Part shown: one piece after another, positions 9,339 to 25,712 of the stretch
How positions within the stretch are numbered: position 1 is the first letter of the stretch
Layout of the letters: every line of letters begins with the position of its first letter
Source of the DNA: Prorocentrum cordatum
Lineage: Eukaryota > Sar > Dinophyceae > Prorocentrales > Prorocentraceae
NCBI GenBank assembly: GCA_963575745.1
Contig: CAUYUJ010003381.1
Coordinates: forward strand, 189,501 to 253,500
Length of the DNA stretch: 64,000 bases
Direction: 5' to 3'
Program-made: the position numbers and the translations under genes
Notes under the pieces: generated by a model
Told to the model about the DNA's origin: nothing
Seen by the model: the letters and a program-made list of their open reading frames with translations, nothing else
Databases searched by the model: none

Positions 9339-9510
9339 ACTAATTGTTAGCAGCACGTGTAAGTAGGTTATAAGTAAGTTGCAACTAGGTTGCAAGTAAG
9401 TTATAACCATTAGTAATGTTACTAAGTCGGCTAACTCGGGCGGTGCATTTGGAGGTAGATAGCTTGAGTTAGCGAAGTTGCTAACTTCGCTAACTTTTAC
9501 AGGCTTACGT
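9339..9510. repeat. Left subterminal region
   Basis: AT-rich DNA with repeated short motifs: GTTATAA, AAGTTGC, TAGGTTGCAAGTAAG, TTAGTAATGTTACTAA and GCTAACTTCGCTAAC. The same GCTAAC and TTATAAC words appear at 25650-25705. Such subterminal repeats are typical transposase-binding regions; the function here is inferred. Confidence 0.65.
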
Positions 9511-9804
9511 GAAAACAGAGCTGCTGCATCGGGTTTTCCTTGGATGTTGCCTCCAGAAACGCACGCATGTGTTTGGATTTTCGGGATCACGCATTTCGGA
9601 AATCATGATCCAGACTTGCGTGCGAACGCATTCAGAATATTGCATCGAGCGTTACAAGAATGTTGTGCATTGCAAATGCAACATATCATTTCGAATTCGC
9701 AACCCTCTGTTGCACATGTTTTTGAATGTCACTAGAGTTTGGGCTCCAGCCCTTTGGGCGAGGATTGCTGCTGGCGCTTGTGGCGTCCTCCTGCACGCGG
9801 CGTG
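9511..9804 (+). promoter_or_regulatory. Upstream region of the first cargo gene
   Basis: Contains repeated TTGCATTGCAAATGCAAC-like words and CGCATTTCGGAAATCATG. CTCCAGCCCTTTGGGCGAGG at 9752 is a possible, strongly decayed SL relic. No promoter motif can be assigned. Confidence 0.3.
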
Positions 9805-12218
9805 ATGAACGCCTCCCGTGAACAGCAGATCGCGGAGGTCCGCCCCAAGATGATGGCCATCAAGGACATGTACTTGCATCCTGATGCAGCGGTGGTCTCA
9901 TTACTTGAAGACGTATGCAGCATTGCAAGAGGCATAGACTGCCTGAGGGTAGAAAAAATACACTCGAAGTATATGATGGTGTGCACAGAGAATCGTTACG
10001 GAGATGGAATCATTCCGAGCGAGGTTATGGATTTGATTTCCAAGATCTTCAAAAATGGATTCAAGAACTCAGCCCTCCAGAATCCAGCTTGCATGGAACT
10101 TCCACCAGTGGGCACGCCTGAGTACAATGCAATCAAGAACTTCAATTTCAAAATAATGGAGGACTCAGCGGGCCAGCTGCCGCAGTATGATTGCGATGCA
10201 AAGTTCGCATCCTATACGTGCGGCCACACATCCATGGGTTTGCGTTGCATCAACGCAGGGGTTCCAGTACCCACGGTCATGCCAGAGCGTTTCGACAGAA
10301 TCTCGCACCAAGGGAAATTGTCACTGACGAGGTTACGGGAGGTTCAACCAGACTACGCTAAGGCGTGTGACGAAGGAATTGAGTGGAAGGTCTTTCGGTA
10401 CGAGTTCGTGAAGGAGTTCCCGTGGATTAGTAATCTTGCTCAGGAGGCTGGCAATGCAGGCCAACAAATTGCCAGATGCGAATCTCGCATGAGTCTCATG
10501 TACAAGATCGCAGCAATTGCCAACCGACACCACACGGGTGGCACCATGATCGATTGGGATAGTGTGATCCGCGAGGCGACTCGCGCAGGCTCTCTCTTTC
10601 CTGGGGAGATCGATGGCTTAGTAAAATATGTGAAGGAGTTGTCTGGCGGCCTCGGCAACCCGATCTTTCTGAACGAGCTTCGCGACTTCTCGCGGCAGCT
10701 GACCTCCCAGTGCGTGGTCACGGGTTCAATGGCGAAGTCTCTCGCCGAGGTGCAGATCAAGCATGAGGGGGCCGCTGCGACATTCAAGCTCGCATGCATG
10801 AAGGCGATGACATGTGCGACGGGTAAGTTCGCGAGGGATGGCCATCAGATGCTTTTGAAGCCAGGCGACGTGACCGCCTTGTCGAGCGATAAGAAGTCTA
10901 CGATTGTAATGGTGGCCGATGAATTTCTTCAGAAAGTGCGACAGATCGCATGCGGTGAGGGCATCACGGCAGACACGGTCGCCTACGGCACCATCGTGGG
11001 ATTGACTGACGTTCGCGTAGTTCATTTCGTGTTCAACAAGCCCGATGAGCGCTTAGGCACTTGCAAGACGCTGAATGACATCGGGGTCAGCTTCACCACT
11101 GCGTTGGCAACGCACGTTGGCAAAGCAGTTGCTAGCCCATGGAAGCAGATCGGTCGCGAGGGCGCATCCAAAGCCGTGACAGGGCAGGCGCGTAGCTCAG
11201 ATGTGAAAGAGTACACCGCTTCGGGCAAGTGGTCGAACCAAGTGGACAAGCTCAGTGACAAGGGGTTTGAGGTTGGCGCCAAAGTCGCCTTGGCGAGCGA
11301 CACCTTGGGTGAGAACATTTACGAGCTGATCTCCATCGACGCTGCGACTGGCGTGAAGTTGAAGCTTCAGGCCACGGGCAGTGCGACATGCCACCCCATC
11401 GACGACTTCTTACGTGGCAAGTTCGTCGTGTCCACGATTATGAAGGACAGTCTTGCGACCTCGTCGCAATGCATGTGGAATGCATATACACCCCCACACC
11501 TTTGAATTCTCGTTCGCCGTTCCCTCATCTCATTTGGCTCTGCGTCGTCATGTCTCATCTTTTTTTTTCCCGCTGCTCCCCCATAGAGGAAACGATCGAC
11601 AAGTTCGCTGATCATGGCCCCCTCAAGTCTGTCGATTACCAGTGGGGTATCGAGGGGGCCAAAATCAGGCTGGCCTTGGATGATGTATACAGCCAGAACG
11701 GCAACTGTCTCAAGTACTTGAGTGGCGTGATTACGCCTGTTAAGCTTCGTGCTCTCACCGTAACGCGTTCGTTTGAGGCTGAAGAGCTGGTGCTTGCCCC
11801 ACTCTCTTCGGCAATCTACTTGAAGAAGCAGACTGATATAGTTCAGTGTGGGCATGTGTTCATGAAGACATACAAGGACCCCAAGGGATTGACGTTCAAT
11901 ATCGTGTTGGCCCCCAGTGGCGGCATCAAGATGCCTAAGGCTGAGACGAACACTGGCGTTGGAGGGCTGAAGCAGGCACCGTCTTCGCTCGTCATCCCCT
12001 TCTGGCTCGTACAGGATTCAGGTGAGCACGGCACCCCCAACATGAAGCTCAAGACCGTCAAGTCTACAGCTGTCCCATCAGTGTATGTACCAATTTTGAC
12101 AAACAAGTGCGCCATCAACAAGGGCGATGTCCTTAGCGCCCAGCTGGCATCGCTCATGCCCAAGCGCAAGGTAGACGACGTGCCTGCTGCGCCCGCGGCT
12201 AAGAAGGCCAGGAAGCGA
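9805..12218 (+). CDS. Cargo gene 1: unknown spliced protein with C-terminal NLS
   Basis: The first ATG of a long frame is at 9805; upstream codons in frame are non-ATG. Exon 1 (9805-11449, 548 codons) ends at A before GTCTTGCG. A 137-bp intron with a T8 and C-rich tract ends CCCATAG at 11586, and exon 2 continues in phase (ETIDKFADHGPLKSVDYQWG). The exon 2 end is not certain; a donor near 12218 is likely because the sequence after the basic cluster PKRK...KKARKR loses protein character. That cluster resembles a bipartite nuclear localisation signal. I recognise no family. A nuclear accessory protein of the element is one possibility. It may continue into the next exons at 12418. Confidence 0.6.
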
Positions 12219-12417
12219 TGGGGCTCGCGTGCTGGCAGCATCGGTTACACATACCATGCGTCGTGGGGGGTGTTTATGAAATGTATGAAAGCATCGTCGG
12301 TATCGTTCCTCTGCAATCGTTGCATCATTGCGTCAACACGCATCGGACTCGTCTGCAATTGTCCATTGCATCGGCCCGCAGGCGTTTGGCTGATCTGCGC
12401 ACGCACTGCAGCTGCAG

Positions 12418-25375: not shown

Positions 25376-25514
25376 CATGATGCGCTGCGGACCGTCGCGT
25401 TTGCCCCAGGACGATAAAAACATCTGAAGGCCCCTGAGCAGATCCAAATCGACGAAGCGCCCAATCATGATGCCCCAATTTCCAACTACATGAGATGCAA
25501 AAACATAACATAAA
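25376..25514. other. 3' flank of the transposase-like gene
   Basis: Short AT-balanced stretch with no features identified. Confidence 0.4.
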
Positions 25515-25631
25515 ATATATATATATATATATATATATATATATATATATATATATATATATATTTTTTTTTTTTTTTAAAAAAAAAAAAAAAAAAAAAA
25601 AAAAAAAAAAAAAAAAAAAAAAAAAAAAAAA
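25515..25631. repeat. (AT)n, then T15, then A53
   Basis: A roughly 50-bp AT dinucleotide run passes directly into 15 T and then 53 A. The T and A runs are complementary and could fold back. Part may be the poly(A) tail of the retroposed gene upstream, later expanded. Length may also be affected by assembly. Confidence 0.85.
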
Positions 25632-25712
25632 GCTTCAAACTGGCCAAAGCTAACTAGTTATAACTCCGTTAATAACAATTAGAAGTTCCGCTAACTGTTA
25701 CTAACTACGCAG
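25632..25712. repeat. Right subterminal region
   Basis: GCTAACTAGTTATAACTCCG, TTAATAACAATTAG and CCGCTAACTGTTACTAAC mirror the left end at 9339-9510. Read from the right, TTAGTAACAGTTAGCGG lines up with TTACTAATTGTTAGCAG. Confidence 0.7.

Follow-up and report, generated by a model that had tools for sequence, protein, structure and literature searches.

We describe here an element of 16.4 kb in a 64,000-nucleotide stretch of the genome of the dinoflagellate Prorocentrum cordatum (GenBank assembly GCA_963575745.1, contig CAUYUJ010003381.1, positions 189,501 to 253,500; this whole stretch is referred to as the window), which is very likely a complete and recently mobile multigene DNA transposon of the cut-and-paste type. 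It occupies positions 9320-25722 of the window, carries about six genes (G1 to G6, the last encoding the transposase) and, as a first-pass annotation of the same DNA had proposed, splits a reverse transcriptase (RT) gene, with an open reading frame (ORF; 7067-9343) on the left and RT and RNase H parts on the right flank. That annotation had placed the block at 9339-25712; the present ends were set by comparing copies (44 left and 47 right ends) and lie 19 bp further out on the left and 10 bp on the right.

The first-pass annotation had also suggested searching the same genome with both ends, and this search, which covered the 4.13-Gb assembly (21,875 contigs), recovered many copies with shared ends. 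The first 562 bp of the earlier block gave 190 candidates, with all 40 scored places matching at 99-100%, and 601 bp near the right end gave 214 candidates and matched 40 contigs at 100% (an extra row is a partial second match in C18544). The left terminal inverted repeat (TIR; CCTGAAGGCCCTCGGCCTTACTAATTGTTAGC, 9320-9351, plus strand), a 32-mer, was found with at most two mismatches at 168 places and its reversed control at none. Scanning 96 loci for ends yielded 45 left and 51 right stretches, from which 44 left and 47 right ends were extracted; in five stretches (four right, one left), taken at predicted positions, no end was visible. All 44 left ends start with CCTGAAGG and have CCTGAAGGCCCTCGGCC as a longer common start, one of them continuing with GT instead of TT, while CCTTCAGG closes 44 of the 47 right ends, the other three being one-base variants (CCATCAGG in two copies with common flanks, CCTCCAGG in one). 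Copies ending elsewhere were looked for among these extracted ends and not found. The right TIR, which reads CCTGAAGGCCCTGCGTAGTTAGTAACAGTTAGC from outside, was placed at 25690-25722 (minus strand) by comparing ends among copies; the two TIRs are imperfect, and their alignment of ca. 33 bp needs gaps.

Paired ends on one strand were found on 31 contigs: 27 pairs span 16.4-17.0 kb, three span 24.4-25.4 kb and one spans 62.9 kb, these lengths being estimates that assume the tail length of the window copy (for C17589, 16,466 bp was estimated and 16,370 bp was read). The full second copy, C17589, differs from the window copy at 94 of 16,279 aligned bases (0.58%), and in C16544 the same element reaches 24.4 kb, as it houses a nested long interspersed nuclear element (LINE) of 7.95 kb. 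Flanks differ among nearly all copies. The first-pass annotation had named an accumulation of smaller insertions as its main alternative. In this view, the RT gene would have been hit several times, and the ends would be alike by chance or through a target palindrome. The region is indeed rich in low-complexity sequence and nested insertions do happen, as the LINE in C16544 illustrates, but a block of the same size recurs in 27 of the 31 pairs between different flanks, and its gene order is common to a divergent second family (family B) with a transposase 58% identical, so that we consider this alternative highly improbable. The order of genes in family B also speaks against independent duplications around the internal genes, for which no gene-by-gene search was made. 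The shared ends, the lengths and this gene order strongly support a single cargo-bearing DNA transposon rather than piled insertions, and the supposed target palindrome behind the end symmetry turned out to be a misread TIR.

The window copy is bordered on both sides by the dinucleotide CA (9318-9319 and 25723-25724). An exact 2-bp target-site duplication (TSD) was found in 32 of 35 paired ends and one of at least 3 bp in none of the 35; shuffling the partners 1,000 times gave a mean of 9.2 matches and a maximum of 18. The duplicated dinucleotides (CA 13, CG 7, TG 6, TA 5, AA 1) are nearly always pyrimidine-purine (YR) steps, with a wider target preference for C-YR-G, position -3 being C at 29 of 44 ends and position +3 being G at 31 of 47. 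When the flanks of the copy in C19730 are rejoined with a single CA, they correspond to units of a ca. 122-bp satellite at other loci, i.e., to empty sites, and 21 of the 30 listed junction-spanning satellite alignments are entirely gap-free. A ca. 122-bp tandem repeat flanks several independent insertions of both families (e.g., C2896, C14367, C16144, C19730 and, for family B, C15000). In the window, the flanks rejoined at 9319 and 25725 read GVPQWVLAPALRAYTAPRRIRVG and keep the frame of the left ORF; rejoining on one GGCCTT, judged by eye, fails to restore the RT frame. GGCCTT is present at both edges, as had been noted before, but it is assigned to the TIR because the ends of the copies start and finish outside it, and the duplication across copies is 2 bp instead of the 6 bp that had been suggested. 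Segmental duplication, or transposase-free amplification of a dispersed host locus, would accommodate the near-identity of copies (0.58% in the one full pair) and the flanks shared by some of them (C2558 and C18088; C14035 and the window copy; C5238 and C19101), but the ends are exact to the base, the duplications are 2 bp long, empty sites exist and the flanks of the other copies differ, which makes such an origin hardly conceivable.

The previously reported inverted GTTAGC/TTA words at the ends were recovered as well. GCTAAC/GTTAGC words make up a left subterminal repeat region (9340-9495, plus strand; words at 9346, 9430, 9468, 9480 and 9489), with five GCTAAC words in the left 250 bp and two in the right 90 bp, compared to one in the 15.2-kb interior and one at 25371. 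These words are likely candidate binding sites of the transposase or an auxiliary protein. An (AT)n and poly-A tract of variable length (25515-25631) adjoins the right end.

An ancestral origin of the gene set is best supported by family B. P0002, a 70% relative of the transposase, served as query in a tblastn search that returned 3,512 loose candidates. Scores were obtained for 63 of them: 42 fell at 67-70% (the window family, family A, and close variants) and 21, without stops, at 60-61%. The family-B copy C15989 (14,602 bp; ends CA|CCTGAAGG and CCTTCAGG|CA) matches the window element in the order and orientation of six genes, with homologues of G1 (43% over 732 amino acids, a single intronless ORF), G2 (35% over 118 amino acids by tblastn), the GYD-repeat gene G3 (KDGYYG repeats, last 44 amino acids 50%), G4 (41% over 54 amino acids), G5 (35%, E 2e-69) and, at 58%, the transposase. 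Among further family-B stretches, 10 of 12 showed a recognizable right end and 5 of 8 a recognizable left end; five of the six copies with both ends have matching YR duplications (four CA, one TG), C20527 has CG and CA, and C15550 has AA on the right flank, its left end not being reached. Differences between families A and B at codon positions 1/2/3 amount to.37/.24/.63 for the transposase,.43/.40/.63 for G1 and.49/.40/.58 for G5, a pattern with the third position most variable that suggests longer-term selection. Since family B keeps the six genes and shows this codon-position pattern, we consider the gene set ancestral.

The transposase-like gene noted near the right end of the block was confirmed as G6 (23294-25375, plus strand), which encodes a protein of 693 amino acids with a RAG1/Transib-like DDE core. 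The predicted structure has a RAG1-like fold over model residues of about 41-564, with D129, D236, C255, C258, H498, H502 and E519, and the triad residues D129, D236 and E519 sit in its RNase H-like fold. Among 17 aligned rows, the triad is well represented (D129: 16 D and one gap; D236: 17 of 17; E519: 14 E, one P and two gaps), as are the C(2)C motif between the second D and the last E (C255 and C258, both 17 of 17) and the H(3-4)H motif (H498: 14 H and three gaps; H502: 14 H, one Q and two gaps). The C-terminus (residues about 560-680; 24971-25333, plus strand) adopts a predicted BAH fold. We regard the element as a RAG1/EnSpm-type transposon, probably of a new lineage. Its size of ca. 16 kb and its several genes might also recall an endogenized virus or virophage-like element of the Maverick/Polinton type. 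However, no viral Pfam family was found among the seven element ORFs scanned, scans of viral contigs confirmed no relative, neither with the transposase profile (0 of 50 pattern stretches) nor with that of G1 (0 of 42), and the RAG1-like transposase and 2-bp duplication also argue against a viral origin, which we therefore judge most unlikely.

Subterminal repeat arrays such as those found here are typical of CACTA-like elements. RAG1 and Transib are characterized by a 5-bp TSD and a TIR resembling the recombination signal sequence, and the PHD finger of RAG2 does the chromatin targeting for RAG1 in trans. The window element shares the RAG1-like fold, in a predicted model, with RAG1, ProtoRAG and Transib, but it has a 2-bp YR duplication, a different TIR (CCTGAAGG), no recognized RAG2-like gene and a BAH reader in cis. 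Large cargo-carrying eukaryotic transposons include Starships, Mavericks and giant CACTA elements; these are likewise large and rich in genes, whereas the transposase here is of the RAG1-like DDE type and not a tyrosine recombinase or a retroviral-type integrase accompanied by a DNA polymerase. According to PMC12730594, the CMCT assemblage comprises EnSpm/CACTA, Mirage, Chapaev, Transib, Plavaka, ESTA, Lanisha and RAG1. The D/D/E triad, C(2)C, H(3-4)H, a TSD of 2-5 bp and TIRs are common to this assemblage and the window element, the likeness resting on predicted fold, but CMCT termini are mostly CA..TG and here CCTG..CAGG. The BAH domain and a set of about six genes conserved within 16.4 kb are further differences, and Pfam detected no similarity. 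In the same paper, ESTA, which duplicates TA only, and PlavakaA, which ends in TGT..ACA, both combine 2-bp duplications with RAG1/EnSpm-like transposases (PMC12730594); as far as these descriptions go, insertion at any YR step (TA in 5 of 32) and the CCTGAAGG end distinguish the window element from both. Zisupton and Kyakuja, with TSDs of 8 and 7 bp, respectively, in that account (PMC12730594), differ from the element with its 2-bp duplication. Among the titles and abstract openings listed in the literature searches, none describes the element.

Under the proposed mechanism, the RAG1-fold DDE transposase, perhaps together with an auxiliary element protein, would bind the subterminal repeats, pair the ends and excise the 16.4-kb element, the 3' ends of which would be joined to YR steps with a 2-bp stagger, and the C-terminal BAH domain may steer the transposase to a chromatin mark. 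G1-G5 would serve the element itself, as helpers or regulators, and would not be cargo carried along; this reading is based on their having been retained for as long as the transposase has. A palindrome array, noted before and confirmed at 17412-17704, consists of eight palindromic 27-bp units (GTCGTATGTAAGATTCTAACATACGAC). The family-B copy has, at the equivalent place, four units of another 27-bp palindrome (GTCGTCTTTGAGAATCTCAAAGACGAC), and both arrays lie about 220-270 bp past the stop of the GYD-repeat gene. The units of the two families have their outer arms and centre in common, while inner bases have changed on both sides with the symmetry largely retained (11-13 of 13 pairs per unit). 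Since comparably symmetric 27-mers occur elsewhere (six in the window element, one in the family-B copy), it is the repetition and the conserved place that deserve attention. The palindromes may be the site for a dimeric protein or form an RNA hairpin. More tentatively, and with a rather low probability in our estimation, the element would represent a separate dinoflagellate superfamily whose RAG1-fold transposase has its own BAH reader, inserts at YR steps and depends on five helper genes as well as on a conserved palindrome array, which would act as a centre of assembly or of a partition-like process. The most daring version of this reading makes G1, with its faint ParB-like predicted fold, a dimer loading on the palindromes as on parS.

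Several observations weigh against a complete and recently mobile transposon with constrained helper genes. Transposition itself was not observed. The duplication is absent in 3 of the 35 pairs (C14035, C2448 and C14367), possibly through recombination, deletion or misassembly, and two of the 35 (C2558 and C18088) may represent a single insertion. Stop codons interrupt 11 of the 42 scored family-A transposase matches (31 are without). The window transposase has no Pfam family at E<=0.1, and 17 aligned transposases gave at E<=1 only two domains of unknown function (E 0.12 and 0.24), with no Pfam transposase family such as EnSpm/CACTA, Plavaka or KDZ among the matches. Four lesser AlphaFold models have a mean predicted local distance difference test score of 56-76, and the introns of G1 and G2 were called from sequence and not from transcripts. 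Between families, G1 (43%) and G5 (ca. 40%) are less conserved than the transposase (58%). Between the window copy and C17589, nonsynonymous to synonymous changes number 8:3 in G1, 8:3 in G3 and 6:2 in G5, compared to 0:1 in the transposase, so that the helpers seem only weakly constrained in recent copies, although the numbers are small; as nonsynonymous changes exceed synonymous ones, recent copies are possibly losing their helpers. This excess would also fit a smaller autonomous transposon, made up of the transposase and perhaps one helper, that captured host genes, with G1-G3 and G5 as passengers or co-opted for defence or host manipulation, as would the lack of a credible Pfam family for the five non-transposase genes (best rows: G2, E 0.092; a relative of G1, E 0.019). 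Host-gene capture is known in this assemblage, e.g., of TET/JBP in fungal EnSpm/Plavaka elements (PMC12730594). However, the six genes occur in order in family B, and in the transposase, G1 and G5 the first two codon positions vary less than the third; we regard such a capture as possible but unlikely.

If the element is the transposon proposed here, a RAG1-fold transposase with a chromatin reader, apparently outside animals and in many nearly identical copies, would widen the known range of this lineage. Vertebrate adaptive immunity arose from a RAG1-related transposon, and a BAH-bearing transposase would offer a comparison for the division of labour between RAG1 and RAG2. The chromatin of dinoflagellates is unusual, so that the target of a BAH domain there is a question in itself. 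Furthermore, the element cleanly marks a recent expansion of the genome, and the ancestral genes that it carries yield uncharacterized protein families that can be tested.

G1 to G6 all lie on the plus strand. G1 (9805-12467; exons 9805-11445 and 11589-12467) encodes up to 839 amino acids, with an uncertain C-terminal limit and a predicted GA..AG intron (11446-11588). Its fold leads are all weak: an SH3/Tudor-like barrel at residues 474-546 and a weak ParB-N-like resemblance. The 18 database rows of relatives, the window's own among them, gave scattered weak rows when aligned and compared with Pfam (the best being YabA, E 0.019, two members; Phage_integr_3, E 0.11, three members). G2 (12418-13914) was delineated by tblastx and tblastn to family B and by reading frames, and has an exon at about 12418-12756, a putative intron at about 12757-13263 and a second exon from about 13264 or 13297 to 13914. 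The introns of G1 and G2 are absent in the family-B copy, and a recent intron gain within the transposon is possible. G3 (15903-17189) encodes a low-complexity GYD/KG-repeat protein of 428 amino acids, G4 (19743-20132) is a small ORF with its final ca. 54 amino acids conserved, and G5 (21446-22852; 468 amino acids) has a basic and proline-rich middle and two database rows of relatives (P0035, 99%; P0036, 76%). The clusters of close relatives are similar in size (P0001, 54; P0018, 39; P0036, 43 members), which is consistent with co-amplification but is not a copy count. Two divergent paralogue pairs had been reported; one was recovered, i.e., G3 and the KGYD-repeat ORFs on the minus strand (13989-15169), and the second was not seen, no further search having been made. 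The minus-strand ORFs, which are broken across frames and have an 11-bp indel between copies, are probably a decayed inverted copy of G3; among the matches listed, no clear coding counterpart was found in family B.

The LINE nested in C16544 lies on the opposite strand at element position 10945-10952, the aligned halves overlapping by 8 bp at the junction, and carries ORFs of endonuclease and RT-like type as well as an end rich in (GAT)n. The left flank of C14035 equals that of the window copy over the 21 bp shown and its right flank differs, which would reflect either a recombined duplicated locus or misassembly. C2558 and C18088 have both flanks in common and C5238 and C19101 the left flank (21-30 bp shown); these would be either assembled duplicates or segmental duplications. 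The LINE that received the insertion in the window is a pseudogene (7067-9319 and 25725-28352). Its left ORF contains a motif-A-like stretch (ALDWRKAYDHIDL) and its right flank YVDDF, both of which we take, by eye, to be RT motifs, and the right flank holds an RNase H domain (Pfam E 1.5e-16). This LINE was broken before the insertion: the RT is interrupted at about 25823 by an in-frame TAG, and a different frame holds the endonuclease-like part (ORF 5685-7976; Pfam E 0.0043, under the curated cut-off). Elsewhere in the window, a tandem array of a 160-bp unit (318-2302; ca. 12 copies, 85% matches) and a 2.3-kb hexamer-like CCATTA/TCCCAT repeat array (35618-37886) were observed.
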